DNA from: Fragilaria crotonensis
Lineage: Eukaryota > Bacillariophyta > Fragilariophyceae > Fragilariales > Fragilariaceae
Direction of reading: 5' to 3'
Length of the DNA stretch: 57,258 bases
Assembly (NCBI GenBank): GCA_022925895.1
Contig: JAKSYS010000394.1
Coordinates: 1-57,258, forward strand
Under the pieces are notes generated by a model, which saw only the letters and a list, made by a program, of their open reading frames with translations, was not told where the DNA came from and made no database searches. Of this stretch, positions 10,973 through 57,258 are shown in pieces (the first letter of the stretch is position 1; every line of letters begins with the position of its first letter). A program made the position numbers and the translations under genes.

Positions 10973-11088
10973 CTATAATTTTTACCTGGAACATCCACGC
11001 CTCCAATGTTTTCTGCTTTCGGCGCATGTTCCTCTTGGCGAAAGGTCGCGTGAGGCGTCGAATGCTTTCTTTCGAAAGCGAAATGGTG

Positions 11089-17338: not shown

Positions 17339-17346
17339 ATGCCATA

Positions 17347-17362
17347 CAGGGCTTGTTAGTGA
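17347..17362 (+). repeat. hAT left terminal inverted repeat
   Basis: CAGGGCTTGTTAGTGA, preceded by the target duplication ATGCCATA. Confidence 0.95.
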
Positions 17363-17503
17363 ACCTGTGACTTAGTGATTTTTTTTCACTAACTATCACT
17401 AACTAAATAGTTAGTTTCACTATGACTACGCTCTGCCTGCCTTAGTTAATTTAGTAACTAAATAGTCACTAAATTCAATATGCACATTTGCTGAGTAATG
17501 CAG

Positions 17504-17538
17504 GCTGCGGGCTGCGGACTGCGGACTGCGGACTGCTC
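17504..17538 (+). repeat. Seven-base tandem repeat in the hAT 5' region
   Basis: Five copies of (G/A)CTGCGG in tandem, inside the element before the transposase start. Confidence 0.8.
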
Positions 17539-17710
17539 AGAGCAGACGAGTCGTTCAATATTATCAAACGGATTTAGAATCCTATATCCGTCACCTTGTC
17601 TCTTGTGTCAGCATCCTGCACAATCACAGTAATACACGCTCAGAATTCAATTTGCTTGCTCCTCTGCCGCCTCACTTGTCAATTCTCACTTGTCATCGGT
17701 CGTCGTATTG

Positions 17711-20280
17711 ATGGATATCGAAGGGGTTGGCGGCGATACTGTGCCAGGAGAGGACCGAAACGAACAACCGTTGCAAGAGATATCAAAGGCGGAGCAGCGC
17801 GCAATTACTAAGGTGGCAAAGAGTTCTTGGGTTTGGAATTACGTTTACCAACTAACCAATGGGCCGATCGAAAAATCTGGCCATGTTTGTAAAATATGCT
17901 ATGACAATATTGACGTTGACAATGCTCCCATGAGAGTCTTTCAGAAGTGTTTGATTTCTCTCTACAATGAATCAACTTCAAACGGAGAATCTCATCTTAA
18001 AACGCACCACAGGAATGTTATCCCCAAGGCTCAAGGCAAAACCAATGGTTGTCAATTCAGTCGACAGTTCACAATCTGAATCGGGATGACGACGATGAGC
18101 TTATTCCTAGCAAGAGGAAACGACGCCGTCAACAACCAAGTTCATGCTGCAATTGCTATGCTGGTTGTCAATCGCCGATTGCCACTGTCATTTGCCACTG
18201 ATCCTGAATTGACTGCCATCATTGAGCTTGCAAGTCACTTAAAACCTGGATCATACAAGGCCATGACCCGAGGAAAGATGGACGCCGCCCTTGCCTCAAT
18301 GTTTTCATCGTTTGTGACGGAAATCAAAGCACGTCTGGCATGTACTCGTTCTGTGTATTCCTCGGCTGACAACTCCAATGTGCCACCTGGGTGGCTTATT
18401 GTTTGTCACGATGGCTGGGACTCCACAATTAAACAATTCTTCGGTGTTTCTGTCTACTGGATTGATCCTGTTAAGTGGAAACGATATAAAGTTGCACTCG
18501 GGCTAGCCATCCCTGATGGCCATTCCGCTGATGCTTGCGCTGCTGCCGCACGATCGATTCTAAGTCGCTACGATATCCAAGATACGGATCTGTATATGAG
18601 CATTAATGACACGACAAATGCATCTGTTGCAACGGGGCGCAGACTTACAGGAGAAGATGGTGATTGCCATATGCACATGGCTAATCTTGTTGCTGACCAC
18701 GCATGCGGCAAGCGAACACGATCAGAGAACCATGTCATCATTGATAGCTTCCCCCCGTGTGAATCATTACGTGTCAAGGCGCGCAAACTCGCAAAGTACG
18801 TTTTCAGCAAGAAAGCCAAGTCTCGCCAAGTCCAGTACAAGTCTCGCAATGATAATGCTAACATGAAAACGATTCGAATCGGGCTCGACAATGACACTCG
18901 AATCAGCGGCACGGAGATGATGTTTCAGCAAGTGTTACGCAGCTTCTACACTCTTCATGTCTATATGAATCAGGAATCCGCTACTGGGCGAGCTCATATG
19001 CTTACAGAACAGGAGTGGGAGCTTCTAGCAGGGTTTGAAGCAGTTTTACGCCCAGTTTGTAACTTCTCGTTTGTGACCCAAGTTGATTCGCAACCGACTG
19101 CTGGATCCAGCTGGCTGCAAGTTTTAACGTACGTATGCATTTTCATTTTGCCAATTCGAAAATTTGTTGTTAATTTCTTTTAAACATTTTCACAGCTGCG
19201 TCATGGCCCTCGAAAAGCCTCACTTCAACATTGTGGATATCACGTTCACTGAAGATGAGGATAAGAAGTGGGATGGGTCTTGTTCCTTCGATGATCTACC
19301 AAAGAAGAAAGTTGCCACTGAGGCTTGCACAAGGACGTACAGGATCTTCGTTATCGTCTGCTAGATGAGATTAAGAACTACTTCCCGGCTCCAAACGACC
19401 ACCAATTAGTTGCTATGGTTGTTGATCCAGTTATGATGACTACAGGACTACCATTCCTTCGAGCAACTGGACAGGGTTACCTTGTTGATAAGGCTCTCGC
19501 TGTTTTCAAGAGAATGCTGAATGCAGAGGCTGTGCGGGTTTGGAAACCAACTGTGTTAGATGAACCCGTCGATTCCAGTTTGATGGATGATAACTATGAC
19601 AGTGATGATCCATTCTCAACAGCCTTGCGAAATAATGCCATTCCTCGCGAAGAAGCTGTTGTTCTTGAACCAGTGCAGCAAACTGCATCCCAAATGGCTG
19701 ATGAAGCATATGATGCATGGATGAATCAGTTGATTAACTGGCATGCTTTCCTTAGAAATGATCAGCGCGCCGAACTCTCCGATGTGGAAAAGGTCAAGAT
19801 ATCTCGAGGAGACTGCTTTTTTTCTAACCAATAAGGTTGATATTCTGATGTGGTATCGTCTCAACGGCAAAGATCACACAATGGTCTCTCGTATTGCTGC
19901 GCCTGAACTTGCAGCCCCCGATGCAAACGGGATGCAAGAGCGTGTATTTTCATTCTGTCGTCTAATCGATACTCACATGCGGCAGAGTTTGGGATCATCG
20001 AAATTCGAGATGCTCACGCTCCTTGCATTTAACAAAGAGTTTATAAGGTCAGCTAGCGAAAGTGGCCCCTATGAGCATGTCCTGCCTTCTGGATTCCCTT
20101 CGCTCATCGACTTCAGCAGTAGCAGCCGCAGCTGCATTGACTGAGTTCTTCGATCTCGACACTGAAGACGCCGAAGATATCCAGGCGACCGAAGAGGGAT
20201 CTATGGCGGACATGCTAAAGCGTGCGGCCGATTGTATTGACGAAGAGACCTCACACGCGTCAAAAAGGTTCAAGCATTGA
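17711..20280 (+). CDS. hAT-family transposase
   Basis: This protein catalyses excision and insertion of the element. Near the N-terminus is a BED-type zinc finger (CKICYDN, then HLKTHH) after WVWNYVYQL. A basic nuclear signal follows (SKRKRRRQQ near 18110). The RNase H-like core contains VCHDGWDS (first Asp) and SINDTTNAS (second-Asp region). The C-terminal hAT dimerisation region includes VDILMWYRLNGK and RVFSFCRLIDTHMRQ. The last part is acidic and ends KRFKH. A GT-AG intron is likely at 19128-19194 (GTACGT to CACAG). One-base frame changes are needed near 18075, 18115, 19330, 19805 and 20060. Confidence 0.82.
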
Positions 20281-20488
20281 ATAGTAACAAGAAGTATACG
20301 TTACAATTTACAATAGCTGCATGCACTCTATAGGCTCGCATACACGTATACAGCAAAATGCTATTCAAAAATAACACATGTCACATGTCTCTAGTGAAAC
20401 ATTTAGTTGATTTAGTTAACTAATTATTTTTAACTACGCTTTTACAGTGGCTTAGTTAGTGCATACTATAACTAAGCCCAAAACGGAC

Positions 20489-20504
20489 TCACTAACAAGC
20501 CCTG
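20489..20504 (-). repeat. hAT right terminal inverted repeat
   Basis: Exact reverse complement of the left TIR, followed by ATGCCATA. Confidence 0.95.
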
Positions 20505-20512
20505 ATGCCATA

Positions 20513-20896
20513 TGTCATACTGAAGTATCATATAATTGATTGTTACGGCTACCAGTAGTCCGGTACTGTAGTTGCGTTTGGCCGCTATCCGAGTAGTATG
20601 CGTGTACGTGTAAGATGGTACTGCAGTGCCAGTAAGTCTACTGCTACTATAGTACTCAGAGAATCACCGTAAGTGGTACTCCAGTACTCGTAGAACTACG
20701 AAGTACATTGAGTTCTACAGGTACTAGAGTACCAGTAGGCATGTACCGCACAAATTGAAATACTCGGGACTAGCACAGTACAAGTACCGTTCTACAAGTA
20801 TGATAAATGTACCCTGTGCTGTAGACACTTAATAGTAGTCTACAGTCTACAATGCTCGCAGTACCAGTAGTACTCACTACCTCTGTACAGTACTCT
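20513..20896. other. Flank between hAT and Copia
   Basis: No gene. Dense in GTAC/AGTAC-type short repeats. Since the Copia element is inserted at 20897-20901, this is the ancestral upstream flank of the lumen-protein gene now at 32687. Confidence 0.5.
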
Positions 20897-20901
20897 CATC
20901 T

Positions 20902-21499
20902 TGTTAAAGATCTACTGTCACTCTGTCACACTGTCACTCGTAATTACTGTAAGGTTAAATACCATACGGTAATACGGTAGACAGTCCTTTATTTTCCTTC
21001 GTCTGTCCGTGACTCGTACCAGTAGTTCTGCGAATCAGAACTCTGGATCCCGCGACCACACAAGGAATTTAAATCATGTTGCCCTGAGTTTCCCTAAGTA
21101 TTCAAATCTGTTATGTTGTCAATTTTATTGACAACACAACTTTACTATGGGATTCATAACTCAAACACCACTCAACAAGTGGGATTAAAGCAACATAACT
21201 TTTGTGAGACTCCAACTAATATTGGAGATCTCACTTTCATTTTCATCTACATTTTAACTTATAATTTCCACAAACCAAAAACAGTAAAGGCCTTTACTAC
21301 TTAGTTCTACATCTTCTACATATTTGTAACAACAAATCTACCATCATGGTCCACATCTTCAGGACTCCTACGCCCAAAGCTGGACGATCCGTCACGTTCG
21401 CTTCCTCTCCCGTCAAGTCCGACGGCAGACTTCTAGGTCCTACTAACCTTAAGTCTACCGTCGGCCAGTACTCGCGTACCGATCACACGAATACTGTCA
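20902..21499 (+). repeat. Copia 5' LTR
   Basis: Begins TGTTAAAGATC and ends ACTGTCA, preceded by target duplication CATCT. Compared with the 3' LTR it has an extra AA near 20906, an A/G substitution in CGTACCAG near 21017 and an extra AG near 21228. Confidence 0.95.
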
Positions 21500-24400
21500 T
21501 GGTTGCTCGCCTCGTACCACCGGTCCAAGGCTCTACCGTCGAGGAAAATACTCGACCAATGTCTCCGATCATTGGTCGAATCTACCTACGGCCGTTAAGA
21601 ACCTACGCTTAACTGCTATTAATTTCCCTCGCCTTTGGATTCGCCAGCAACGGATTTAAACTCACCCTTGAAGGCAACAGAACTTTTAAGTCCACCATGC
21701 AGAACTTACCTCCGCCCTCCCTTGCCCCTCGCGCCTCTAGGTCCGCCTCCAAAGGCGCTAACCCTGACGCGTTCGACGCTAACGTCGACTACCCCGCCGA
21801 ACTCGGCGCATCTCCTGTCCCTCCTGACACGCCCACCCATCCCGCCCTCTACAAAGGTGCCTAGCCTATGGATCTCCGAAGAAATCCAAGCTCCTCCCGT
21901 GTCCGTTACATCCCTTCTCCAACCACTACCCTGATGACGATCAGGATCTCCCAAACAACAAGAAGAAGAGGCGCACCTCTGAGAAAGGTCCCGCCTATTT
22001 TGACGTCTGCAAGTTAACCTACGACGACATCGATGATATTATTGAAGAGGATCGCAACCTCCACCCCGACGAGCGCAAGCAGCAGGCTTTGCAGCTCCAC
22101 CACAGCAGGACACTAAAGTTAGCCACAGGGCTACTTCTACCAAAGAAGGCTGCAAAGATGCAGACCACTACAACCACAACTACCATGGACAACTACTACA
22201 ACAAAATGGGCGAAACTACAAACAAAAACGGTCCAACTACCTTACCTGCTGCATCTACCAATGTTATGAGCAATAACATTGGACCTACTGATGTTATTAC
22301 TACAGAGGAGCACACTACTACTGCCGCCAAGCGCCGCACTAACCCAACAAACACAACGTAATCGATCTCACCGATGATACGAACGACTTGAAAACGCCCC
22401 AGAAAGCTCCAAATTCGCCTCCCACGCTCACCTACAAGTCCAGAGCCAACACTCCAAGCATTCCTACCGCAAAAGTTACCACCTTGACCAACTTTGCCCA
22501 ACCTGCTCACAATCCAATTTTCAAGCTCCCGGGTGCATGAATCCATCTGGCTTCTCCACCCTTCAGAAGACCTGCAAAGATCTCCATGACTGTCTCTTTG
22601 CTCATCTTTTTAACCTTCCCTTCCATCCTTCACCATCAAAGTATCAGCCTCCCTCAACCAGAAAGCAACAACAGTGCCAGGGAGAATCCAAAGAACCTCC
22701 CACACTCATCCACCCCAGTCATCCTGGCCTGGAGTCAGAAATCGCCACTTTTACCCACAGAATTGCTTCCTTCGGTTATACTCCAACCCTCACTGAGTTT
22801 ACTGGCTTTCTACAGCATCATGAGGACCTTGAAGACCTTGTCATAATTGCCATCAAGATGACTGGAGATGAACAGTTGATGCCCATTCTTGATTTGCTCA
22901 TCCTCGTTCGCAGCGTAATCGGGCAACGAAACTCACACTCCGTGCCGCCAGCACACCGTATGGTCGACATCCTGGCCAAATTTGAGCGAATTCCGACAGA
23001 TGGTTCTCGAGAAATGACTGTTCAAAATTTTCCCTCCCCCGCGTATTGGTGGACGTCGACAACTCTGCAGCCTCGCGAACGAAAACTATGACGTGTCATG
23101 ACCGCAGTGCTGAACTCGGGACTCGTAATTTTGTGCCGAAACTCAGATTCCGTCAAACTCCCTTCGCGTCAGCGCCACAGTCCCCGACAACCGCCGTATT
23201 TACAGTCCGTGTTATCCCGAGACACCGTCCCCGCGTCCCAACGTCAATGACCATTCTGCCGATGACGCATCCACTCGACCATTTTCCCAGCCCGCTTCGC
23301 CTACCGATGACTCGTTTGATATCGACCCTTTGTCCACTTTGCACCACGCGGCCCCTAACTGCTGAAGAAAAGGCCTTGGAATCGTACTGTGATGATGATG
23401 ATACTGTCGAGTTTACTGTCGTGGACGGTACGGCGATCAATCCAGTCCACCCCAGTGTGCCTACAGAGCCCACAATCCCACTGATCCCAGCCTTTCCTCC
23501 ACTTCCTTGAGTGTCCAGCATCCTGTTCCTATCAAATTGGAAGATTTACCTCTCTCCCTGACTCTGATTGTGCTGATGTTGGTGAAAATTATTACTCCCC
23601 AGTGATAATTCACCAACTAAGCCATCTGTTAACTTTACCCTGCTTCTGACCCTGTTCCTGACCCTGAAGTCTTACCAGAAGTTGAAATCATGCCAGAACC
23701 CATGATCATTGAAAGCATTGAAGAGGAATTTGTGGAAGAAAGTGCAACTAACCCAATTTTGGAGGCACTTAATGAGCTACCCAAAGCAGCAATTCAACAA
23801 CCAGTCCGGATGCTACCCCACTTTTTCCTGAACCACCCTAAGGCATTTGAATCCTCTTGCCCCAGTTCACCACCGCCCTTATGCAATGTTCCAGGACCCA
23901 GCTCACCATCCATCGTCGGCCTTGATGTTCTCAGAAGCTACGCTGGACGACCCACTGAACGGTACCATCCATCTACGCGACCTACCGCTTTGCATCGAAA
24001 TCAGCACCACTATTGCAGCTTTCTGTCTCAACTTTCTCGCCGCTCCACCGGAAGTTCATCACATTCGCGACATCACGTCATCCGACATGAAGCCTATATC
24101 GCGCCACATCACTCTCAGACACCAGATGCCAAGTCCTAACTCCCTCTGTATTCCCGCGACGACAAGTTCTACCTACTCGGCATGATTCACACTCTGAACC
24201 GTGCTACCAACTTGCTAACCCAGCATTTCACCGACGAACAACGCTCCCTTTGACCTTCGGCATCCCGGATAAGTACTACGACATCACCCGCGACTTCTAC
24301 GAAAACCCTCCCTACTGCCCGATGGAAACGACATGTGCTGTCGGACTCATCTACGCTCCGACTCTACTACATCACCCACCACCGCCACAGCACCTACCAC

Positions 24401-26270
24401 CGACACGGTTTTCGCCAACACGACCTCTACCCGAAACACTTGTTCCAGATCGCAAAAGATATCAAGTCTACCGCCGCCGCTCTAAGTTTGTTCCCTGATA
24501 CCACTACTTTTCGGACGCTCCCTCGCTTTGCTAACCATGCCTTCTTTGAAGCCGATCTTTTCCCTACCTTTTGCATTCCTTATCGCGGATTGAAACGCTA
24601 CCGGAAAATGTTTCGCGTGGACTTGAATTTCGCTCGCGCGAATCCCTATCTTGTCGCATACACGAATTCTTTTCGATTGGACGACGAGGAACAACGATCG
24701 ATTGCCTTGCGAACTGCCCAGACAATCATCCGCCTTGCCTTATTCGAACATGGTCTCATTAATCGCAAGACGCGACGACGATCGAGGGAACCAGAATTAT
24801 CCAACAACCGCTTCCATATTGGCAACCTTCCACCTGCAGATCTATTCTTGTCCAACTTTGCAACCTGCTTCCCCATGATTACCAGGCCCTCCCTTGTTCA
24901 ATTGGATCTTGATGATGTCAATGATGACACACTTGCAATCAACTATGTGGTCTGCCAACCTCTGGACTTCCTCCAACTGTTTACCCTGCAACCAACTGAA
25001 GCAAATGAAACCTACTACATGGATGTCTACTCTGACCTCACTCCAGTCCCTACCAACGGCATCAACTTCTCGATTGACTTCCTTCCGCACTTCGAGTATA
25101 TCCTCTACCGAGTTGCGCAACTTGTGAATCAAAGGACCCGACCGGCATTCTCCCAGGAACCATCCTCCTCCCCACGTTATCATGTTCCAAGGCTCCCACT
25201 TGCGTCCAACTCCTACTCTAATGGTTCATCAACTGAGATTGCTAAACCTACAGCAAGAGCAGGAATCTTCCCACCACTTTCAACCATGATCAACAACCAA
25301 TCATCAGCAACAGAGATGGAGAACCCTACAACAGATTGTCAGTCCAAGCTTTGTTCAAAGCCCAACTTGCCAAACCAATTCTTTCCTATCACATTGGCGA
25401 CCCCGACTGGATTCCAACCAGCGCCGCTAACCTGCGTCGCCACCCTGATTCCAGTAAGTATCACGTCGCTCGCGATCCCAAAGCGGTCCCCTTTTCCTTG
25501 GCTATTCGCATGATACCAGTTTTCACAACTGGTCCACTTGAGGAATCCATCTATCAAGCCTGGGCATTGCCACATCTCATTGATGCCCTCCGTGACCCTG
25601 AGATCCAACTTTTCAACAATCATCTTTCTTATTATTATAATGAGAAAGAGTCTCATCCTGAGTTTCCATTCATTGATCAAATGGGACCTGATTCACCCTT
25701 TTCAGCCAATGGCTACAATGGTGAGTCTAGTCTACAATGTCTGTCTTATCCTGGTTGTTATGCTGGTTACTTACCTTTTTCTATCTGTGATAGCCTAGGC
25801 TGTCCCAATCAGATGGAATTAGTTACAAGTAACAACATAATTACCTTCCAACAGGATACAACTACATTTTCTGGACCACATTTCGCATGTCTTGCCGTAA
25901 AAACTCGCCGTTCCGCTTTATTTTCCGATCCGACTCGAACCCCGGACCCCCAGCACGAAATTTCTGCACAAAACGACCCACAAAACGAAAATCTTGCAGC
26001 AAACGAACCTGAAACTACAGTTTTCACGCACGACGAACCTGACAGCGAAAATCCCACACAAAGTGACACTACCAGCGAAAATCCAACACAAAACGACGCG
26101 CACAGCACGGAAACTCACTCCCAACAGCTAATTTCCGACGCGGAAACTACATACACGATTACACACAAGAAACTCAACAACTGCCCGGAACTCAACCAAA
26201 TCTCGCGTTTTGCCACCAAACTCGCCCGAAACAAGCAGTTCACACACCAAAACACCCTCTAACTCGCCTC
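21346..26270 (+). CDS. Copia 5' extra coding region (pre-gag ORFs), function unknown
   Basis: Coding-like sequence fills about 5 kb before gag. The first ATG (21346) lies inside the 5' LTR and its frame runs through the primer-binding site to 21612. Later segments read in different frames: an acidic part with a basic nuclear-type signal (PNNKKKRRTSEK near 21950), TYDDIDDIIEEDRNLHPDER (near 22020) and VIDLTDD (near 22350). A 22537-23091 frame follows, then a 392-codon frame (24335-25513) with FHIGNLPPADLFLSNF, and a 309-codon frame (25336-26262) ending in a repeat-rich, N/T/E-rich tail. I recognise no domain. The many frame changes probably include base-calling errors. It could be one or two long proteins, or captured sequence; the end point is approximate. 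Confidence 0.5.
21500..21511 (+). promoter_or_regulatory. Putative primer-binding site
   Basis: TGGTTGCTCGCC begins immediately after the 5' LTR; TGG complements a tRNA CCA end. The priming tRNA was not assigned. Confidence 0.6.
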
Positions 26271-26749
26271 CAACTGCAAAACCTACAACTGGACCTCTAA
26301 AACGCTTTCCGATGCATTTTCAGGCATTCTCACGCCAAAAAACGCAAAATTACCTCACAATCCGGCCACAACCGACTCGAACCTACAACCTCCGATTTCA
26401 ACAACTTTTCGACGACGCCCAAAATTATACCTTCCAAAAACTTACCACCCCGGAATTCGAACCCTCAACCACCAAATCCATCACAAAATCTTTCGCAACC
26501 CCAAACTCAACAAAGCAAAATTATTCAACATCCCAATACAAAATCTACCAATTCTACACGAAAAACGGCCGATTCTGAAAAAGATCACCAAACTCCTCCA
26601 GAACCTCAAAAACTCGCTTCCGCACGCCCAACTCCGCGCCAGGCGACCCATGCCACCTTTGCATACCCACCAACTGTCGACACCTTCTTTGACGACGACA
26701 CCGATCATGATTCAGAGCAAGACCCAAAACACATCCAGCACACATCACC

Positions 26750-27950
26750 TGATGCACTCACATCCTCCACGCACCCGACTTCACTTACCCCCAATTGAAG
26801 ACCTAACCAAGACGCTCTTGAAGTACGCCAAAATGCAAACCTTCGCAAATTGGCTTACCCAACCGACCTTCAAACGCCGCCGCCATTTTAACCTTCATCG
26901 ACAACCTTCGAATTGTTTGCAACATTTCCCCGTGGACGCGCCAAGTCTTTGATCTTTGGCCAACAAGTCTCTTATTCACACCCATTTGTTGGCACCGCAC
27001 TTTACAACCTGATCTTTACAAACGTCTGCGACCCTTGCCAAAAACACATCATTGATGGCCCACCAGACGCCCGCACCGCGATTCTTACTCTACGACGCCA
27101 TTGCGCACCGCTAACTCCTGACCACGTCGAGCGAACTCGCGAAGCCTTTGTTCCATCAAACAACCACATCATGAAGTCGCCACCTCTTACCTTAACCGCA
27201 TCCGCATCCTTACGCGCGACTGCTATCATGCTGGAATCCCCAACACCGACGCCGAACTCATCAAACGCACCGTTCGTGGTGGAAGCAATCACTCTTTACG
27301 CCGCATCTTATCAACGCTTCGACGCCGATATCCGTCGAGCTGAACTAAACGACGAAGCTCTGCCACCATTCGCCGAACTTGAGAGCCATCTCCTCAACAT
27401 TGACGAATCCCGTGGTCTCACACTACCGTCCCAGAATCAACGCAACTACAATCAGCACGCACATTCTACCCGTCAACAATCTCACCATTTTCAATCGCGC
27501 CACCCCAAACTACCCATCGTGTTTTCACACAACGTCAACAACAAGCTTTCAGCTCCATCCTTCGCCCATATTCAAACCTAATGGCAACAATCAAAACCGA
27601 AGTCATCCACCAAGACCACCGCAAAACCATTCGCGCCCGTTCCGACCACCTACAACTCCTTCGCGACCACCCTTCAACAATCCAAATCAACGACGCCCAC
27701 CACCTCCTTCACCGCGCCCGTCCAACCAACACCAACGAAACAACCGCCCCCTTTCCGACCAACGTCGAATCCAAATCAACGACCATCACCCAATGGATCT
27801 AACATCAATCAATCGCGCAACTCTGCATCCAACGCCGCTACCATCGTCTGCAATAACTGCGGACGCCTCGGCCACTATTCGCGCAACTGTACCAACCCGC
27901 GCCAAAACAATCGCGCATCCAACCCGCAACGTTCAACCAACAATGAAAAC
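26750..27950 (+). CDS. Copia gag (capsid and nucleocapsid)
   Basis: The capsid region includes VGTALYNLIFTNVCDPCQ and AILTLRRHCAPLTPDHVER, resembling gag of diatom Copia elements, followed by a linker rich in N, Q and P. A CCHC zinc knuckle CNNCGRLGHYSRNC (CX2CX4HX4C) sits at 27848-27890. Three frames are used between 26800 and 27900, so breaks near 26940, 27170 and 27600 must be bridged. The boundary with the upstream coding region is not clear. Confidence 0.75.
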
Positions 27951-28134
27951 GCTGCTCCTCGCAATCAACAACGTGCTTACTTTGTCACTGACTCTAGTCA
28001 AGACTCCCAAAATCATTCAAGATACCATCACCAAGCTTTCAAAGCTTCTTCCCTTGATCACCTTGATGATCAACCAGACTACATCCCATGGCCCAATCCC
28101 AACCTACCTCAGATGACTATCAATCAACCCCTAC

Positions 28135-31100
28135 TTGATAGAGATTATCTTCCAACTGCCAACCATGCTCCTCCCAACTCTGGAGCCACAGCTTATTTCC
28201 CTGATGATCCCCAATCACCATACCAAAGATTTGGTCCCCCCACTCCTGGCAAACTGGCTACCTGACAGTGGTGCTACCAGCCATTATACCCCACTCTTCA
28301 GCGACCTCAGTGATGTTGAACCTTGCAGTGTCCCAATCTCCCTAGCTGATGGCAGCACCAAGATGTCTACCCACAAAGGCACAACTGCATGTCACTTCAC
28401 CACTGATGATGGCCTCAAATCCATCCTTGGTCTCACTGATGTCTACTTTGTTGAAGGCCTAAGTCACAGACTACTCTCCCTGACTGCTCTATCATGCACT
28501 CAAAACTTCAGTGTCCTGATCAAGAACAGAGCCACCACCATTCAACTCCCAAATGGCTCCACTTACACTTGGCCAATTCTCACCAGAGAAGTACCAAACC
28601 CACACCAAGCCTTTTCAACCACTTCCAACACCAAAGAACCCTTTGACCTTGACTCTGAACCAGAAGAGCAACACTTTGATGACACTACAACTCCCATTGA
28701 CACTGATCAACGCCGCTCAATCACCGCTTTACCTTTGGAACTGATTTATCGACGACTTGCTTACCGCAATTTTCGAAATCTCATGGTTGGATCCCTTCAC
28801 CAAACATGGAATGATCATGTTCTCACACCTACTGTTGACCACAATTCCTGGCCTCTCCGCATTTCCATCAGTCAAAAGCGCCAGAAACAAAACACCTCAA
28901 CGCCAAGGCACCGAACCCTTCCATCGCCTTCATCTTGACCTTATGCGCAATCCTTCCGCTATGGTCTCACCACCAATTCCAACTACTCAGCCTATCTGTT
29001 TATTGTCACAACCCCAGGCAAACTAACAGGTTGGATTGGTCTTCCAACTGAAAGCACAACTTCCATCCTTATTGCTCTAAAGCAATGGCTTACTGACACA
29101 GAACTCCTTGGCCGCACCCAATCCGTCCGTTTCATCCGCACTGATGCTGGATCTGCTTTTACATCAACAAAATTCATCTCTGAATGCACCTCACTTGGAA
29201 TCAAAGTTGAAGCTGCAGCCCTGAACATCAAGAAATGAATGGTATTTGTGAAGCAAAATGGCGTGAAGTCCACAACACTGCCAACATTCTCCTCAACAAT
29301 GCAAGACTTGGAGGTGCCTTCTTCCATCATGCCCATGCCTATGCAGTTCAAATCCTAAATGTCTGCCCTGCCAAGAATGTTATTGATCAAGATGGCAACC
29401 CAACAACTCCCTATCAATACAGCTTCCAACGCAAGCCTTCCATTGCCAACTTTCGTGTCTTTGGATGTCCTACCTTCTTCAAACGCTATGAACCAACTTT
29501 CCAGCAAACATCACATATAAGCAACAACTCCAACGAGCCTCTCGCGGAATTTTCCTCGGATTTCCTGACAACTCCGAGCTGGCTAGTCTACTCCCTGACC
29601 AACCCCAAAGCCTCATCATCACCCGCGATGCCTACTTTGATGAAGACTTCAATTCAGCTCTATGTTTTGATTCCAAACCCTTTGCTGGAGCCGTCCCCAT
29701 CCGCTCCCATTTCAACCCAAATGGACTTTGCAACACTCCTGAAAACTCTGAACCATCTACTTTTCACCAAACTGGATCTGCAGCCAACCTTGGCAATCCA
29801 CCATCAACCTTCATTGATGACACAAATCCACTGCTCCCTGACTGCCATCCCTGAATCAACTGATGACAATACTGATGAACAACCACCTGGAACCATGCCT
29901 AACCCAACCCATGCTGACCATATCAATACAGCAATCATCCAACATGGTCCAACACCACCCACACCACATCAAATCAACTTTGTCACCCATCAACAACATC
30001 ATTCCCAACTCCACAAGATGATGACCATCTACTTCCAAGAATGCAATGAAGATCTACCAACCATTGATCCCATTCACTCTGCCATGATGACAATTGACAA
30101 CTCTCCCAGCAACAATTCACAAGCCAACCCCCAGGAACCTGTGGACAAATATCTTCCAGAACCTCAGTCTCTCAAAGCTGTTCTCAAACTTGATGATAAT
30201 GTCCGCAATGCTTGGCTACATGCAATCAAAATGGAAATCAAGAACCTCATTGACCATGATACTTTCATCCTTGGACAAACCCCACACAAAGATGAACTCA
30301 TTATCCCAGTCAAACTTGTGCTCAAAGCAAAACAAACTGCATCTGGAAAACTTGACAAACTAAAAGCTCGCCTTGTCGCCCGTGGCGACCTGGAGAAACG
30401 TCTCCTGAAAAGAGTTAAAGCCATCAACCAACAACGACTCCTTGAACAACGTCAAGAAATTGCTGAATCTGCTACCTCTTCACCTGGCACTCCAAAACCT
30501 ATACCTGTTGAACCACTCATGTATGAAGACACCTGGTCACCCTGTGCATCTGCAAGAGGGGTCAAACTATTCATTGCAACCATTTGTGCATCCAGAAGAA
30601 GTGTCAAGAGTGCTGACTTCATTGGTGCCTACCTCCAAGCCAAAGTTATTGGCCGCCACTTTGTGAAACTGCCATTGGAATACGCCTATCACTTCCCTGA
30701 ATACGCTAAATTCTTTGGCTCCCCAATGTTACTGAACAAAGGAATCTACGGTCTTGTCTACTCCGGCAAATATTGGAACATTGAATTTTCGGAATGGCTC
30801 TACTCCCAAGGTTTTATCCAGTCTCCTTCCGAACCGTCCTATTTTGTCCGATATGATAAACACAATCAATGGCTCCGTCTCCTATTTTTCGTCGACGATA
30901 TGCTCTATGCTGGAAGCAATGATTCCATTGAAAAACAATTTGAAGATTCCGTCCGCAATCGCTTTGATGTCAAATTCCTCGGCCCTGCGCAATGGTTTCT
31001 ACAAATGCGTATCCACAAACATTCCGACTCAAGCTACACCCTCGACCAGCACCGCTATGTTTTGAATACTCTTCAACGATATGATCCAAACTCCGAATTC

Positions 31101-31980
31101 CCAGAACGAGATACTCCCTTCCCCTCCCGATTATACTTTCAGCAAGGATAACCGCCCCGTAACCGCCTCCGACCTGACTCTCGTCGAACAAAAGCAACAA
31201 CGCCTTCCGTTCCGCTCTGCTGTCTGCACTCTCCTCTACCTAGCATACAACACAAGAGCTGACATCCTATTTGCTGTCTGCAAACTTGCTAAAGCATGCA
31301 TCTCTCCTGGCATACCTGATTTTCGAGCTCTCACCTGGCTCATTGGCTACCTCCGCGTCGCCCTACTATGCCCTCAAATTCTATCCCGATGGCACTTCAA
31401 ACCCCATCTATGACATCTGCATCCATCATCGCATTCCATACACTGATCTCACAGTCTTCTCTGATGCCAGCTGGCAAGACTGCCCGATACCGGCCGATCT
31501 ACTGTTGGATACATGATCTTCTACAATGGTGCTCTTATTGAAGCAAATTCTACCATGCCAACACCTGTTGCCATGTCTACCTCCGAAGCTGAATATATGG
31601 CTGCATGTTCCGCAACCATGGCCACCGCTCACATCCGAATGCTTCTCTATGATATGCTCTATCTTGGCACCAAACAATGGCGTGAAACCACTCAACGTCT
31701 CCCTTCTATCCCTGCCATCCTCATGATTGACAATGAAGCAACTGTTCAAATCGCCAAGAATGGCAAACTCACTCGCAAAACTCGCCACATTGAACGCCGT
31801 TTCCACTTCGTCCGTCAAGGCCAACAAGACGGCATCCACCAACTTCATTGGATTCCCTGTGACTCTCAACTTGCCGATATCCTCACCAAGACTCAACACT
31901 CCGGCAAAATTGATCCTCACCTCACCAAGATCTTCTGTGTTCTCCCGACCACATGCTTTCATCACCGGGACCAGAGATCT
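28135..31980 (+). CDS. Copia pol: protease, integrase, reverse transcriptase, RNase H
   Basis: Protease has DSGATSH (near 28265). Integrase follows a zinc-binding-like pre-region (LELIYRRLAYRNF): catalytic Asp in LHLDLMRNP, second Asp in VRFIRTDAGSAF and Glu in MNGICEAKWREV. Reverse transcriptase (about 30250-31150) shows KARLVARGD, EDTWSPCASARG, DFIGAYLQAK and the catalytic FVDDMLYAGS. RNase H (about 31440-31980) shows TVFSDASW, MSTSEAEYMA and DNEATVQIAKN, ending with an ADILTK block. The longest open piece is 29235-31151. Breaks occur near 28890, 28960, 29220 and 31130-31500. Confidence 0.92.
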
Positions 31981-31985
31981 GATCC

Positions 31986-31993
31986 AAGAGGGG
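31986..31993 (+). promoter_or_regulatory. Polypurine tract
   Basis: AAGAGGGG immediately before the 3' LTR, the expected site for plus-strand priming. Confidence 0.75.
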
Positions 31994-32588
31994 TGTTAGA
32001 TCTACTGTCACTCTGTCACACTGTCACTCGTAATTACTGTAAGGTTAAATACCATACGGTAATACGGTAGACAGTCCTTTATTTTCCTTCGTCTGTCCGT
32101 GACTCGTGCCAGTAGTTCTGCGAATCAGAACTCTGGATCCCGCGACCACACAAGGAATTTAAATCATGTTGCCCTGAGTTTCCCTAAGTATTCAAATCTG
32201 TTATGTTGTCAATTTTATTGACAACACAACTTTACTATGGGATTCATAACTCAAACACCACTCAACAAGTGGGATTAAAGCAACATAACTTTTGTGAGAC
32301 TCCAACTAATATTGGATCTCACTTTCATTTTTCATCTACATTTTAACTTATAATTTCCACAAACCAAAAACAGTAAAGGCCTTTACTACTTAGTTCTACA
32401 TCTTCTACATATTTGTAACAACAAATCTACCATCATGGTCCACATCTTCAGGACTCCTACGCCCAAAGCTGGACGATCCGTCACGTTCGCTTCCTCTCCC
32501 GTCAAGTCCGACGGCAGACTTCTAGGTCCTACTAACCTTAAGTCTACCGTCGGCCAGTACTCGCGTACCGATCACACGAATACTGTCA
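31994..32588 (+). repeat. Copia 3' LTR
   Basis: Begins TGTTAGATC and ends ACTGTCA, followed by CATCT. It ends 98 bp before the start codon of the lumen-protein gene and points toward it. Confidence 0.95.
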
Positions 32589-32726
32589 CATCTGTCCTGA
32601 CTCCTGACTCATGACTGTTCTGACACACGCGCGCATGCCGTGGTTAGATGGGGCAAGAACAGAATCCATGTAGCCTCAGAATCACCATGCGCGCACATCA
32701 GCAACTTCTACTCCGATTCATAGCAA

Positions 32727-32745
32727 CATCAGAAGGTGGGTTTTG
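32727..32745 (+). repeat. Left TIR of the 7-kb element
   Basis: CATCAGAAGGTGGGTTTTG, exact inverted match to 39760-39778. It is followed by GTAAGTATG, which looks like a 5' splice site. Confidence 0.9.
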
Positions 32746-33274
32746 GTAAGTATGTCATAATATGTTAAGTATTTTGTGGTGATTATACCATATATGTTGA
32801 CTTTGTATTATTTTATGGTCAATTCTTACTTTAAATTTGCATGTACGAGGACAAAGTGTCTTATGTACAACTTGATATGTCATTGTTCAACATATATGCT
32901 AGGACACTCTAAACATATCTGTCTATAGACTTTTGATCGGCAACTATAATGGAGCGTTCTTAGCAATGTCTCATTTGCAACTGTTTTGTTTATGACAAAC
33001 AATATCTTTAATTGGATGAAAAGAATAAGTTTTGTTCGATTCCTCCCATATGTAATGATACTAACAACCCAACATCATTTTCTGTCGATCAATTAACCAT
33101 TTTATGTTATGATAAACTTTTTTGTGTTTGATTTGGTGCCACTCTGATTTTGTTTTGTACACAGCGACAGCTTTATGCTGTTACAACAGCTGTGTTTCTC
33201 TTCGTAAAATGTTTTCTTCACTAAATAATTGTGTTGTCTTCTAGTCACTGTGCATTCATTGTCTTTCACCTTTC

Positions 33275-35095
33275 ATGTCGACATCAGATGTTTGTGTTGG
33301 TTGCGAGAAGCCTTTCAAGAGGCTTGGCACCCACCTTGCTCAAAATGCATGGTGTGCATCGCATTACTCTACGCACGACAACTCAGCAACAACAACATCA
33401 ACAACGTCTCAAACAATAGTCACGTGAATACCAGTCATGAGGTGTTGCAGAAGGCACTCCTCACAGGCGCCTTAATTTGAGCTCATTTTCATCTCGTGGT
33501 GTCAAAGAGAGTGCTGGCAGAGAGGTGCACAAAAGCTAGGTGTCAAAGATGGACATGAATCCGGGAGGATGACTTTGTCGTTGACAACGACGACGCTTCC
33601 AACTACGGTCGCGTTGATGATCAGGATGTTTTGGAAAGTGAAGAGGAGAAATGTCAAGCAGACCACAGTGTCTTTGATTTGTATGAAAACTCTTTAAGCT
33701 ACGGTCCAACCCACTTGGTCTCGAACGTTTTCTCGGGAGGAAGGTCCAAATTGAGTTGTTGCAACTCTTACGCGATCTGAACTGTCCTCTCAAAGCATTT
33801 ACCCTGGTACTGAACTGGGCAGCAAAATCAAACGCAAGTGGTCATGTATTCCAGATGGGTTGCCAACCAACTCGTGAAAAGGTGATGAAGAATTTGAACG
33901 AAAGGTACAACATGAATGGATTGATTCCAAAAGAGAAGCAATTGTACCTGCCTTATTCGCAGAGGACAGTTTCCGTAGTATTCTTTGATGCCAGCGAAGT
34001 GTTTGCATCGCTTCTCTCATGTCCTACACTCAATCAAGATGAGAATTACTTATTTGATGACTCCAAGGACCCATTTGTTGCACCTTCGGGGACATCATCA
34101 CATATTTCTGATATCAACAGTGGTCGCTGTTACAGTAAGACATACAAGGCATTGGTAAGGATATCGGTGTTGACGTACTTCTACCATGTGTTATGGCTAT
34201 GGACAAGACCCACATTGACATGGCAGGTCGGCTCCAGATGGAGCCAATAACACTGTCACATGGTCTTCTGAAGCACGCAGTCACGCGCCTCAATTACGAT
34301 CGCATTCTTGGCTATATCAATCACAGCACACCTCCCGCCCCTCACCATCAGAGCAAGATGCCGAATTGATTGATACACTTGCAAAGGACAGTGCTTGTCA
34401 AAGACCCACTGCAGCGTGATCCAAATGTAGCGTGGCCAACCTATCTTTGAACGAGGCTCATATGCAGATCCGATTCATCCTTGAAAGTCAGGTTTTTGCG
34501 ATTGCAGAAACATGGCTTTCGATGGAATCTACACTACAATGTGAAGATCCATCCAGTTGTGTTCCACCCCTTCGTACCATTCATCATCAGTGACACCAGG
34601 TCACGACCGTCTTTGTGGTCACTATACCGCAGCTTTTGAAGATCCAACAACTTTGTCGCATCTGTGAATGCCCCACAAACTTGACTGGTCATTTGAAATC
34701 CAAGTTTCCCCATCGTTCTCCGCATGGTATCAATGAACTTGTCAGGATGGGCAAGACTGACCAGCTCAAGATGTTGTCACAGAACTATCTTAAGAATGGT
34801 TTCGATGAGATTCGATTCGGTTCACAGTCGGCGTGGCATTTTCGGTGCATGTCCAGGTGAAATGCTTCACTTAATTTCCCTCGGCTGGTTCAAGTACTGT
34901 CTGGAAGCCTTCTCTGCCCAAGCTGGTCCCAAATCGTTGGCATTGAAGCAATACGACATGCTGTGTGCCAATCTTGGCATCAGATTGTCCAGACAGAGTG
35001 ACCGCGACATCCCTCGAATACCGCTTCCAATCTGATGGGACACGAGATGGCCGGTTGTTTGTTGGTCAAGTTATTTGCCATGCACACAATTGCAG
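33275..35095 (+). CDS. Large-transposon transposase-like protein (resembles Plavaka/KDZ type), 3' part lost or unclear
   Basis: Starts at ATG 33275 with a zinc-binding-like CVGCEKPFKRLGTHLAQNAWC. An acidic linker follows (33570-33690), then KVMKNLNERYNMNGLIPKEK, ASLLSCPTLNQDENYLFDD and the block DVLLPCVMAMDKTHIDMAGR with LQMEPITLSHGLLKHAV. Later parts are CECPTNLTGHLKSKFPHRSP and GIFGACPGEMLHLISLGWFK. The MDKTHID...LQMEP and PGEMLH-type blocks resemble transposases of the Plavaka/CACTA-KDZ group, from memory of the family only. About seven frame changes are needed. I cannot follow the protein past about 35095, where the reverse-strand gene begins to overlap, so the C-terminus may be truncated. 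Confidence 0.5.
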
Positions 35096-36537
35096 AGTAG
35101 GGAGCCGTGCTCATGACACCGGTACCGGGGTCCTTCCTTTCGTACGGGATCCTGGTTCCAATCGCGAACATTGTTCCAACATCCGCCGACCTAGCCCTCG
35201 CAGTCCCCTTCGCTTCCGACTTCCGAAACTCAGAACACTGGCCCGTGAGACTCCCCAGCAATTCGCAGTGGTCAGCGTTCACATCGATCTTTGTCAGGTT
35301 GCGTATCATCACAACAGACTCACGATCACGTGTTCCACCCACCACATTCGTTGTGTCAATCCCAACAATGATATCAACAAAGTGAGTCGTTGCCGGATCC
35401 ACGATCCAACAGGACTCCGGCAGCTCATAGTGGTGACACCCATCGACGTCGTGGCGGCCGTCCTTCTTCGCACTGTTGGCATGAAGAAGGAGCCGTTGGT
35501 ACGCGGCGGCACGGTAGTCCGGAGGGACCGTCCGCTTGTCGTCACCCACGAGGAAATCGGGTGGCAACATGGGCCCATCCACGTCATGGCACTGGATGGC
35601 CCTGTACATCACTCGGTTCTGCTGGGACCGGTGTGTCCTCCCAGTGGAAATTCTCCATGCAGACACGCGGCGGTTCTCGTCAAGGCAGCGGGATCCCGGT
35701 CGACCGTCAGCATAATGCACACGAGGACCCGTTAAGTCGGTAAAGAAACGTTTAACAAAGCTGTCACTACCAAACGCATAGGAAACCTCACGATCGCCAC
35801 CAGTAACCTCCCTCCGCAAGCGGAGCCAGCTCATGTCATGGGCTGTCAACGTGCCCGGCACACCGACATCTCTCCTGCGACGTTCCCTATGACAGTAGAA
35901 TACCCCCGCATTGAGGAAGGAACAAGATTGCTGCCCTGTACAAATAATCCATGTCCGGACCAAGGTCTTCAGCCCTGTACGATACGACATGACGGACGAC
36001 GTCATAGTCAACATCAATAGATTTGCCGACGTCCTTCTCCCCTCTCTTGTTGTCATCGCCAGTTGCAGCCGGGGCCGGAGCCCTGTTGAGAACCACATCC
36101 ATAATGTAGAACTCATTCAGGAACTCGGACTCGATTCGAGATTCCGGGAACATGTCAGCGGCTGAACGCAGTTGGAACGGTTCGCATCCAAAGGCGCTTG
36201 CAATAACTGGAATCGGAGTATGACAGAAGGAAATACAGCCTGCCCCATCCACATCCTTGCTCGCATTCCGAAAGCGCTTCCTGAATGCTGCCCTCTCCTC
36301 AGGTACAACGGCCATCGCCAACAACGACATGATTTTCCGTTGAGTCGGGCGACTCTGTCGTTCATCTCGTTGACTAGGGAGTGCCTTCGCGTCCACATCC
36401 TCCATATTGCTGTCCACAGCAGTATGGACATGGGGTACTCGTGGTGTGTTTCCCAAGTTTAAAACCGACGTCACACACGGGGAAGTCCTCCTCCCCATGC
36501 CTGCCACCGCATCATCACTGTGTCGATTAGGTGACAT
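34980..36537 (-). CDS. Unknown protein of the 7-kb element, reverse strand
   Basis: About 518 codons from ATG 36537, with one frame change at a run of five C (35903-35907). I do not recognise the family. Visible features are a basic N-terminal third, SFCHTPIPVIASAFGCEPFQ, acidic DVDYDVVRHVVSYRAEDLG, then FVKRFFTDLTGPRVHYADGR, LPPDFLVGDDKRTVPPDYRA and CWIVDPATTHFVDIIVGIDT. Its 3' end overlaps the end of the transposase-like gene by about 115 bp in opposite orientation. Two exact 17-bp direct repeats lie just upstream of its start. Composition is that of a real globular protein rather than a shadow frame. It could be a second transposition protein or cargo. Confidence 0.5.
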
Positions 36538-36546
36538 CGGGCCCTC

Positions 36547-36563
36547 ACCCACTTTCTGGCGGG
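36547..36563. repeat. 17-bp direct repeat, copy 1
   Basis: ACCCACTTTCTGGCGGG, repeated exactly at 36649-36665, 10 bp upstream of the reverse-strand start codon at 36537. Confidence 0.85.
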
Positions 36564-36648
36564 TAAAGGCCGCACGATGCCGTTCAGAGCCTCACAACAA
36601 CCTTGAAGGGCAATGCGAGCGCGTGGCCAACGAAACAATGGCCACTCA

Positions 36649-36665
36649 ACCCACTTTCTGGCGGG
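36649..36665. repeat. 17-bp direct repeat, copy 2
   Basis: Exact copy of 36547-36563, spaced 102 bp start to start; possible binding site for an element-encoded protein. Confidence 0.85.
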
Positions 36666-37693
36666 GGAGTGTCCTTTGATCGTCAGTCAGCGAGAACGAT
36701 CCGACGACAATGATGACGAGAAGGCAACCAACCCAATCATCAATTGCTTCAGAGCAATTGAAGCAATCAATGTCAGATTGAGTGTTCATGCGTTGAAATA
36801 CTACGCAAACTTGCTAAGGGGATTTCACACCTGGGACTTCGTTGCTGCTCCTCTAAGTAAAATGAAACTACTTAGAGTAATTGAACCATATATATAATGT
36901 ACGTTACATATATAATCATTGAAATAAATGTACACAAATGCAAATATTGTGTACCCACGAATCCAATGTATAATACAATACATGTATGATGTGTTCTTTT
37001 TGCAGGACTAGACTACGAACTGTTACGCACTGTTTGTACTATACTCTACGTATGGACACATGACAAATTTTCAATGATTCTTGTTTACACTACAAATTGG
37101 TGTTGTTTTTCACCTATGTACTTATTTTTTGGTCCAGTAAATAAGTCTGACAAAAGCTAAGTACGCCGATACACATAGATACAAATTTATATTTATTGCA
37201 TGCTAAGTATATAATCGCTCATACTCAGCATGCTCGCAACACTACAAAGTGTACCAGCACTGTGTACCTGATAGGGACAACTCCGATTTTGTTAGCGCCA
37301 CACGAATACACGAATACATGTGGTGAATGCTAAACGGAAAAAGCTTAGCATTGTATGCCATATGTGTTTCATTTGAACATATTCATGAAGTCACATCAAT
37401 GGGTAGTGTAAGAATGTTCAATACTGACAAGTAGCGCACATTCAAAAGCAACACATGTTAAATACTTATCCAATGATTGTCGTTTATATGACATACAAAA
37501 CTATGTTCAAGTCATTTACATGTATGATAAGAACAATCCGGGACATCTTGACAAGTTTCAAAAACTTGTATCTGATTCAAAAAATGCGAAAACTAAAATA
37601 TATATCGCCATCCATATCACACTTCCTACAAATCTATTGAATGTAGGTGTGGTTCTAACCCTTTGTTTCTCCTGACACTTACTTGCATTCCTG
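36666..37693. other. AT-rich spacer inside the 7-kb element
   Basis: No supported gene. The open frame ending at 36897 has no recognisable motif. Composition is AT-rich, unlike the coding parts, and probably contains the promoter of the gene starting at 37694. Confidence 0.45.
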
Positions 37694-39315
37694 ATGGCAA
37701 AACAAGGAATTCCAGCTCCTACAACGGGTACAAGGGTATCGCCTCGTATCAAGGAAAAGCGTCTCGCCCGTACAAGCAACACGGACAAGCCGGAATCAAA
37801 GTCGGAACGGAAAAAGAGAAAGGCTGCAGAAGCAGCTGCAAAAGCGATTGCGGGTGATAAAAGTGCGACGCCAAAAGCGACAGAAGTGCAGGAGACCACG
37901 GCAGACACGAATACCGAAGAGGATGACCCTGTGGAGATTACTACAAAGCCCCCCAAAAGACGCGTTGTTCCTCCTCCTACGAAAAAGAGGAGGACGCAAA
38001 AAGAACCAAAGAAGGCTGTTGTGGTAAGCATTCCTGAGGAAATTGACGACGACGACTCTTCGTACTCGGATGAGGAGGTTGACGCGGGAAAGAAGGACGA
38101 ATTGGACGATGACGACAAAGAAAACAGTAGTAGTTCCGGAGACGATAACGACATGGTGCCAAGTGACTCGTCTGACGAAGATAACAGCAGCACGAAAAGG
38201 ATGCGACGTTTTCAAAAAGATATCGAGAAGACAAGCGCTCAGGTGGAGAACCGGCATCGTGAGGAGTTGAACCAGCACACCCAGCGCGGTGCAGAGGATC
38301 CTCCACACGACACAAGTCTGAAAGCCAATATGTCGTCGTCAACTCGTGGGATTGACAGAGCCTCAACAGTGGTTCCTCGTGGCATGTCGAACGCAGTGTC
38401 GATTGTAAAACGAGAGAAGCATGTGGCAACTCGAATTATGCAATTTGTGAAGTCCGAGGTGTTTCGCCGCATCAAATTTGTTAACAGTGCTGAAATGTTC
38501 CAGAAGGCATTCGTTAAGGTAATTGAGTTTGAAAAGGTACCGCCACACAATCATTTGCTTTTCCAGCTGACCTATGAAAGTTGTTTCAACAAAGCATTGA
38601 ACACAAAGAGGAGTTCGTGTGAGCAAGCGGGTGGAATGCTTGCAAGGAAAGCAATTGCCGATCTAAAAAAACGTGGAAGACTTCTTTACAATCGAAGAAT
38701 TCTGTAAGCTGAGGAGAGCGACGGAAAGAGAGAGGAGGGCGTTCTTTTGGTTTTCGATTCGTTCTTGGAATGTGTTTGCGGGGCAAGAGCGTGGCGAAAT
38801 GCCAAGAAAACCATGATGGCATCGGTGGCACGAGATGAGCACAATGGCATAATTGTGACTAAAAGTGATGAAGCATTCGCTTTATTGTTGATAGATAATT
38901 ATTTGGAGAAGTGGAAAAAATGCTGGAAGCGGAGGAACAAAGTGCGGACGCTGAACCGGTTGACAACATGAACATGACAGGAGAAGAAGCCCAAGCGGAC
39001 AGGAGGCAGAGAAAGAAAGTAACAACAAAACTCCCAGGGAAGTACACGGAAAGAAAAGCGGACACTGTAAGTGGCGGCTGGAGCCGCGCTGGAATGGCGA
39101 GGTTCAACGAGCTGTACAGTCTTGTAAACGACGACAGGGCGAGTGCACAATCGGAACAAATGGAACGTGAATTGTTGGCTTTCTGCAGGTCTCAGGCAGG
39201 AATGAGCGATGAGCTACGTGATGCGCAACAGGAGGGTGGTATTGGTGGAAATAATGCGCTGGAAACAGCAGAAGCAATGCCTGTTGAAGCAACATGGGAC
39301 TCGGACAACGACTAG
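37694..39315 (+). CDS. Acidic/basic nuclear-type protein of the 7-kb element
   Basis: About 540 residues from ATG 37694. The N-terminal half is low-complexity, alternating basic clusters (KSERKKRKAAEAAAK, PTKKRRTQKEPKK; likely nuclear signals) with acidic serine runs (DDDDSSYSDEEVD, SSSSGDDNDMVPSDSSDED). The middle is helical (TRIMQFVKSEVFRRIKFVN), then CKLRRATERERRAFFWFFDS. The C-terminal domain has KLPGKYTERKADT and GGWSRAGMARFNELYSLVND, a block I recall from uncharacterised, multi-copy diatom proteins. Joining needs removal of one A in a seven-A run (38665-38671) and one base change in the A run near 38916. Its place inside the TIRs suggests it is element-encoded. Confidence 0.6.
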
Positions 39316-39759
39316 CTAGTTGCTTGCTTCTTGTACTCGCAAGGATTGAAGACAAGCAACATGATTGCCTTAACAAAATAGGTGGATTATTACAATATAA
39401 TTGAATAGGGTGTTACAATTTATGTTGAAATAAGAACAAAACAGTGAACTACGTGTGTCGCAAAGTAAACAATGCTATGCTCAAGAGTCGAATGTATTTG
39501 GCTACTATGCAACAAGCGTGATGCAAAATATTGCATGAAGACATCAGGTTAATGTGTATTCACATGACACATTAGTACATATAAAATGGCAATACATACT
39601 TTATATGTTTCATAAGCACAACGTATGTCATCTTTATTGTTATGAAGTGATAAATATTGGTTAAGTAAACATATTTGTCATATGGATACCATAAATGGTC
39701 ACAACTTCCTGATCGCAGATCATTACGTGGTATATGATACCATCTAAAAAAATAGTTAA
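39316..39759. other. AT-rich 3' region of the 7-kb element
   Basis: No gene. AT-rich, leading to the right TIR. Confidence 0.5.
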
Positions 39760-39778
39760 CAAAACCCACCTTCTGATG
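39760..39778 (-). repeat. Right TIR of the 7-kb element
   Basis: Exact reverse complement of 32727-32745; followed by AA and the continuation of the lumen-protein gene. Confidence 0.9.
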
Positions 39779-40398
39779 AAGCATCGGCGCCATCGCTTTG
39801 TGCGATGCTTGGAGTCCTTCAACGCCGCTAAGTCGTAGCAATGTGCTCTCGATTGGATCTTCCGCCACTGCTGCCGCGTTCCTGAACGTCGAGAGTGTGT
39901 TTGCCTTCGACGGCTCGGGTTCAACGGCATACACCGGACGTTCGGTTTCGTCCAAAAGAGGAACTTGCAAAGAGATACGTGTCTCGTCTGGTGGCTGATG
40001 TCAAAGACTTCAAAGCACTTGGGACTGCCATTGATCGGGGCGAAACAGACGGTGACGAATGGGTAGCTTTCTTTATCCCATATCCACGACGAGAACCAGA
40101 TGCGGTTGGTAGATCATATGCGGCCCAACTTGATCTTGTAGGCAGTGATGGTGCAGGTGGTGTAGGATTATTACTCGCTGGAAGTTTTGGGAAGAAAGGC
40201 AAACCGATTGAAACTTTGCCACAAGTTAGGAAGTTTCAAGCTCTTGCCGGCGCTATTCCCACCATTGCTGCTGCAGGGAAGGCCGGGGATGCAGCCAAAG
40301 CCAAAAAAGCATGGTTGAAAGCCAGCGAGATCTTCTCTGAATATTTGCAGGCTGTCGAATTGCCAGTTTCGTTATCGGATCCTCTTTACGCTAAATGA

Positions 40399-43996: not shown

Positions 43997-44458
43997 ATTT
44001 CCTCCTGTACAGTTACTTGGTGGGAAGAGAAAAGATAAGCCGACAGTCCTTTAAAATTACTGATAATACTCGGAATACTTTAGGAAACGAAATACTATGG
44101 ATACTTGGGTATTGCATCTATACATATGTTACGATTGAGAGCGCGTTCTGTAGTTTTACCCTCGGAACTCAGGAGTGTATAGTTCGGCAATCCGGATGAC
44201 GGCCAGGGGATTGCGTTGACAATACCGGTCACCAGCACTTGTTCGTGGTACTGGAGTACTAGATTTGAACGGACGCATTGATTACAGTACAGTAAATCTT
44301 GCACTTGGAGTGATAGCAGTACAAGCCGAGTAGTACAAGTTATGCTGTTATACTTAACAGCCTTGAATACGAAATCGTGAAGTATTGGCAGGGTGAAAGC
44401 AGCGCATCGCTATAATCACAATACAGTGTATTAGTAATGCTAAGGAGTTGTTCATCTC
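43997..44458. other. Intergenic region
   Basis: No gene. GTAC-type repeats occur near 44235-44340. A GATTTGAAC string near 44261 resembles part of a tRNA T-arm but no cloverleaf surrounds it. Confidence 0.4.
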
Positions 44459-45016: not shown

Positions 45017-45173
45017 AGTGGGCAGGTATGGATGATAAAATCATAATAAAACCTAATAATATTGGGTTGTCACCGCTCTAGGGCCGGGAGATGAACCTCA
45101 ACCATCACAAAATAAACGCTTCGTCGTGTGTACAAATCTCACTAAGTCGTGCTCCAGTCACTTTTGAGTTCCT

Positions 45174-57210: not shown

Positions 57211-57258
57211 TTCACGTGCTTGACAAAATAAATCACATTTGGAACACGATCAACATTA

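Follow-up and report, generated by a model that had tools for sequence, protein, structure and literature searches.

The DNA analysed here (the window) is a stretch of 57,258 nucleotides from the diatom Fragilaria crotonensis (assembly GCA_022925895.1, contig JAKSYS010000394.1, labelled C331 below). It contains a 7,052-bp DNA transposon (32727..39778, plus strand), which interrupts a nuclear gene within its signal-peptide codons and is surrounded by a 2-bp target duplication. The 5' piece of the host coding sequence (32687..32726, plus strand) encodes MRAHQQLLLRFIA and provides the first base of the next codon; it includes the left AA of the duplication (32725-32726). The right AA occupies 39779..39780, and the 3' piece of the coding sequence (39781..40398, plus strand) encodes the remaining part of the signal peptide, a tryptophan at position +1 and the mature protein up to the stop codon.

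The insertion site and its empty counterpart

The element is bounded by exact 19-bp terminal inverted repeats (CATCAGAAGGTGGGTTTTG), located at 32727..32745 on the plus strand and at 39760..39778 on the minus strand, with AA beside each of them, as the sequence-only reading had described. They form the only pair of exact inverted 19-mers separated by more than 1 kb in the window (runs made of one or two letters being excluded), and no such pair was obtained in 20 shuffles of two-base blocks.

The assembly searched for other copies is the window's own (62.1 Mb, 881 contigs). A 922-base query taken from the right flank has one other copy there, in contig C207 (22880-23800, minus strand, 100% identity after rounding). 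Read in the direction of the gene, C207 is GATTCATAGC-AA-GCATCGGCG, with a single AA and no insert, and the gene is open without a break over 218 residues from the predicted start codon, beginning MRAHQQLLLRFIASIGAIALCDAW / MRAHQQLLLRFIASIGAIALCDAWSPSTPLSRSN; the start codon and the reading of the 5' piece are identical in the two contigs. The sequence-only reading had predicted this join by excising the insert together with one AA, and had recommended looking for an empty allele: the join exists as real DNA in the same assembly. The direct comparison of the empty and filled copies establishes where the element ends, which 2 bp of the target were duplicated and at which codon the host gene starts, and the ends and start codon that had been proposed match C207.

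In C207, the leader of the host protein has a hydrophobic stretch from residue 7 to residue 23, which is followed by CDA-W (the cleavage site was placed by eye). The high-confidence class of ASAFind allows F, Y, W or L at position +1, according to the available text of PMC12136025. The hydrophobicity of the leader and the W at +1 fit the diatom plastid signature that had been recognised from the sequence. It is plausible that the protein is of the lumen type, and the stretch that precedes DGSGSTAYTGRS, as judged by eye, would be compatible with a second, thylakoid signal. The host protein has no Pfam match above the cut-off (two weak matches have E values of 0.04 and 0.07), none in NCBIfam, and no significant sequence match in the PDB; its single-sequence AlphaFold model is poor, with a mean predicted local distance difference test (pLDDT) score of 40.

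Identity and content of the element

Catalytic-looking motifs suggested a Plavaka transposase, and this was checked with a Pfam profile. The terminus was examined over the whole genome with the 17-base pattern CATCAGAAGGTGGGTTT, allowing up to two mismatches: it occurs at 64 places on the forward strand and 62 on the reverse strand, and the reversed pattern, used as a control, at 5 and 2 places respectively. All the counts that follow and that are based on termini refer to the 100 of these 126 places that were listed. Many of these termini form facing pairs approximately 10 kb apart. The 2-bp duplication matches in all seven copies read at both ends, AA in the window, TT in C87, TC in C37, TG in C21 and C29, and TA in C317 and C261 (copies with one end were left out of this count). 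The flank of the C87 copy is repetitive, and a search for its empty site found five paralogous stretches, 75-82% identical, that run straight across the join; these are not alleles, and they are consistent with a 2-bp duplication.

The termini of the PlavakaB (CMCT) clade are described as CATCA..TGATG with target duplications of 2-3 bp, and its transposases as carrying, between the second D and the last E, the motifs C(2)C and H(3-4)H, in the available text of PMC12730594. The window element ends in CATCA..TGATG, and the comparison with the empty allele gives a 2-bp duplication, AA. In the sibling on C317, the motifs MAMDKTYID, IGDTEGHD, CRIC, HLVLH and AYAES occur in that order, the last two in another frame, so that C(2)C and H(3)H are both found, by eye and across two frames. 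A six-frame search of the genome with the Pfam Plavaka profile, PF18759, gave 92 places, 76 of which are above the curated cut-off. Among them, 25 lie 0.9-1.7 kb inside a CATCA terminus on the same strand (19 of the 25 above the cut-off) and none lies inside a terminus on the opposite strand. Matches above the cut-off are found inside the terminus in the same-type relatives C317, C251, C458, C563 and C39. The termini, the length of the duplication and the profile matches in relatives thus support the placement of the window element in a PlavakaB-type family of EnSpm/CACTA-like cut-and-paste transposons. The finding anchors a large group of PlavakaB-type transposons in a diatom.

A relative of approximately 10 kb, on C21, is collinear with the window copy over seven DNA blocks (66-81% identity); it has a gene on the plus strand, a second gene on the opposite strand and a third on the plus strand. 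The window copy is internally deleted compared to C21, and its frames are broken. Comparisons with C21 and C317 assign 33275..35087 (plus strand) to a broken and frameshifted N-terminal part of a Plavaka-like transposase, with the first D in VMAMDKTHID and the C(2)C in LCRICEC; in the transposase region, the identity with C21 is 74% over approximately 1.5 kb of DNA. The second gene (34980..36537, minus strand) consists of two overlapping open reading frames (ORFs) and the third gene region (37694..39315, plus strand) of ORFs 37694-38707 and 38920-39315; both were recognised from their ORFs and from C21, and neither has a family match. The direct Pfam search of the window element gave no match, and the search of eight pieces from C21 and C29, with E values up to 1, gave no family and no TET/JBP match. 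The C21 relative of the second gene (L065:1-1677, minus strand) is open over at least 559 residues, and has no Pfam match and no significant sequence match in the PDB.

The window transposase retains the first D and CRIC, with a frameshift around the second D; a search of the window copy for the H(3)H motif and the final E found neither. Approximately 2.9 kb present in C21 are missing from the window copy, and with them the 3' half of its transposase gene. The window copy is probably non-autonomous. Since the H(3)H region and the last catalytic E are lacking, an intact relative would have supplied the transposase in trans.

The interrupted allele and competing explanations

Read from the host ATG without splicing, the window allele encodes MRAHQQLLLRFIATSEGGFW and then reaches TAA, after 20 codons. 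The right end of the element places TGA TGA in frame directly before the remaining part of the signal peptide, and the host protein has a single methionine and no internal one. The early stop, the two in-frame TGA codons and the lack of another methionine strongly suggest that the window allele is null, or off, unless the insert is spliced out; the cell would then live on the C207 allele. The coding regions of the two copies differ by two synonymous substitutions, at window positions 40248 and 40344, no non-synonymous one and one insertion or deletion (indel), and these few differences suggest that the inactivation is recent.

The Plavaka element is one of three insertions in the window contig, all of which fall within approximately 540 bp of C207 sequence. 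A copia retrotransposon with long terminal repeats (LTRs), identified by its RVT_2 match, occupies 20902..32588 (plus strand, about 11.7 kb), its 3' end lying 98 bp upstream of the host start codon. Its LTRs, which align over 593 columns with a single mismatch and three gap positions, are 99.3% identical; its target duplication is CATCT and it is young. The third insertion, of approximately 4 kb (16541..20515), has an ORF of 365 residues at 18086-19183 with no Pfam match above the cut-off, and no clear target duplication was seen around it. The copia element and the 4-kb insertion, like the Plavaka element, are absent from C207. The copia or the Plavaka insertion alone could be enough to silence the allele.

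The single indel in the coding region is an extra A at 39954 (plus strand), compared to C207, which frameshifts the mature part. In the MAFFT alignment of the right half of the window (39779-57258) with C207, there are 96 indels and 67 substitutions (BLAST counts 55 mismatches), to be compared with 17 indels and 79 substitutions in the left block 9675-16540. Of the 58 one-base indels on the right side, the window has lost the base in 44, and 50 fall in runs of two bases or more. The right half also contains a region that resembles a glutamate synthase gene: it is open over 911 codons in C207, and over at most 316 in the window. We considered that the extra A might be real decay, an explanation that the abundance of indels in the right half and the broken glutamate synthase-like region both disfavour. 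It is probably an uncorrected nanopore error, and C207 may also contain errors. Gene models on the window contig may be unreliable, 39779-57258 appearing under-polished.

The window contig and C207 are most likely the two haplotypes of a diploid, and the insertion is then most likely specific to one allele, since the two contigs are collinear on both sides of the site. The collinear blocks are 9675-16540 (98.1% identity), 20516-20901 (92.4%), 32586-32730 (95.3%) and 39779-57258 (98.6%), and 2400-5400 also aligns to C207, at 99%; collinearity extends over approximately 28 of the 57 kb, and the three insertions account for a further 22.7 kb. Two more short matches (139 and 59 bases) break this order and resemble repeats. 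A protein search of the assembly for the host gene finds two strong places, and a third that is weak (43% over 37 residues, E value 0.14). Apart from this question, the stretch 2400-5400, ABC transporter-like by eye, has two further copies, 88% identical in C132 and 85% in C207 (143979-147007).

Altogether, we hold it to be highly probable that a PlavakaB-type transposon has inserted into one allele of a plastid-type gene, whose copy on C207 is empty and intact. Several observations weigh against this reading. Two alleles and two recently duplicated loci look alike in sequence as long as read depth is not considered. Positions 5401-9674 of the window have no collinear match in C207 between 31199 and 35000, the segment 35001-38651 of C207 being outside the comparison. 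The numerous uncorrected indels on the right side make the fine details of the coding sequence unreliable, and the loss of expression is a prediction from the sequence. Regarding the identity of the element, 67 of the 92 PF18759 places have no listed terminus at 0.9-1.7 kb, PF18759 also has a match, below the cut-off, in one of 14 control genomes, and the profile matches relatives only, neither the fragments of the window element nor C21. The 67 places may belong to further Plavaka groups in this genome. The part of the profile matched by the strongest places without a terminus (85-318) is a different one.

That the two contigs result from a recent segmental duplication, in which case the insertion struck a spare second gene, appears unlikely to us. 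It would explain why two near-identical contigs persist in an assembly, presumably the one of PMC9476933, from which, according to the available text of that paper, redundant contigs due to diploid heterogeneity were removed after nanopore sequencing and polishing with Illumina reads, and the partial comparison of 5401-9674 leaves room for it. However, the contigs are 92-99% identical in collinear blocks on both sides of the site, the three insertions account for a further 22.7 kb, the gene is found at two strong places, and the same source reports redundancy that stems from diploid heterogeneity. A chimeric junction created by the assembly is, in our view, extremely improbable. The poor polishing of the right side of the window contig, with its 96 indels against 67 substitutions, could be taken in its favour, but chimeras do not produce exact inverted repeats and a 2-bp duplication, and the same terminus occurs with different flanks in three relatives, whose left-end identities are 98, 97 and 69%.

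Another possibility is that the allele-specific insertion exists as described and that the gene tolerates it. The sequence GTAAGT (32746..32751, plus strand), which overlaps the premature TAA, resembles a consensus splice donor; splicing from 32746 to the AG at 39780-39781 would remove the 7-kb insert and give the leader MRAHQQLLLRFIATSEGGFC-IGAIALCDAW, so that the allele would be partly functional. The join of 32745 to 39782 keeps the frame and replaces one serine by TSEGGFC. The donor is a perfect consensus and is common to the window copy and the three relatives that match its left end over more than 300 bases (four of four left ends of this subfamily), and three ends of another group have GTGAGT at about the same place. 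In soybean, a gene with a 13-kb CACTA element in an intron is spliced correctly past it, at a lower level, as reported in the available text of PMC4219821. We nevertheless consider splicing of the insert very improbable. The acceptor is GAAG instead of C/TAG, its AG comes from the host sequence, an intron of 7 kb would be needed, and the frame would agree by chance in one case in three. GTAAGT is found at none of the other ends compared, most of which have no donor at that place, and the right flank of the C87 copy starts with TTTGAT, which provides no AG. The copia element, only 98 bp away from the start codon, also displaces the promoter.

Introners are intron-making transposons whose copies are spliced as introns, with splice sites that derive from their ends and from the target duplication. 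We examined this reading for the present family and retain it at most as a weak rival, considering that the closest facing ends are 3.1 kb apart (among those listed), that no intron-sized copy was seen, and that GTAAGT is confined to one subfamily. If the insert were spliced all the same, the insertion would have created an instant 7-kb intron and a plastid signal peptide longer by six residues, and the interrupted allele would still work.

Comparison with known systems

Seen as the insertion of a PlavakaB-type element into one of two alleles, the locus is an ordinary insertion allele made by a known kind of transposon. What is new here is the PlavakaB identity of the element, its probable mobilisation in trans, the recognition of the frameshift as a likely error and the possible splicing. 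A plastid-targeted gene seems here to have been knocked out naturally in the heterozygous state, and its two alleles can be told apart by sequence.

Plavaka elements are described in fungi (PMC12730594) and in the green alga Auxenochlorella (PMC12633428), with an animal relative, Amoebidium, in the parts of this literature that were available. Among the listed papers that name "Plavaka", none is on a diatom by its title, within a survey that did not combine Plavaka and diatom as search terms and that left most subscription papers and Repbase outside its scope; apart from the sources on these three groups, the listed papers mention fungi in the title or at the beginning of the abstract.

The closest likeness is with the PlavakaB elements of Agaricomycotina, as far as the available text of PMC12730594 describes them: the CATCA..TGATG termini, the 2-bp duplication, the Plavaka profile in relatives and the order D, D, C(2)C, H(3)H, E in the sibling on C317 are the same. 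On the contrary, the host here is a diatom, the shared terminus is longer (CATCAGAAGGTGGG), and the relatives of approximately 10 kb have two additional genes, the opposite-strand one and the third, which are outside Pfam, with no TET/JBP match. The EnSpm-Plavaka elements of Auxenochlorella belong to the same group, and their insertions also differ between the haplotypes of a diploid, in that case a green alga (PMC12633428, available text). The host lineage is different, and the insertion described here breaks a presequence. Last, the soybean CACTA element TgmR is, like the window element, a large EnSpm-type element in a gene with a possible effect on splicing (PMC4219821, available text); TgmR, however, lies in an existing intron, whereas the present element lies within a coding sequence which the empty allele reads without interruption as one open frame.

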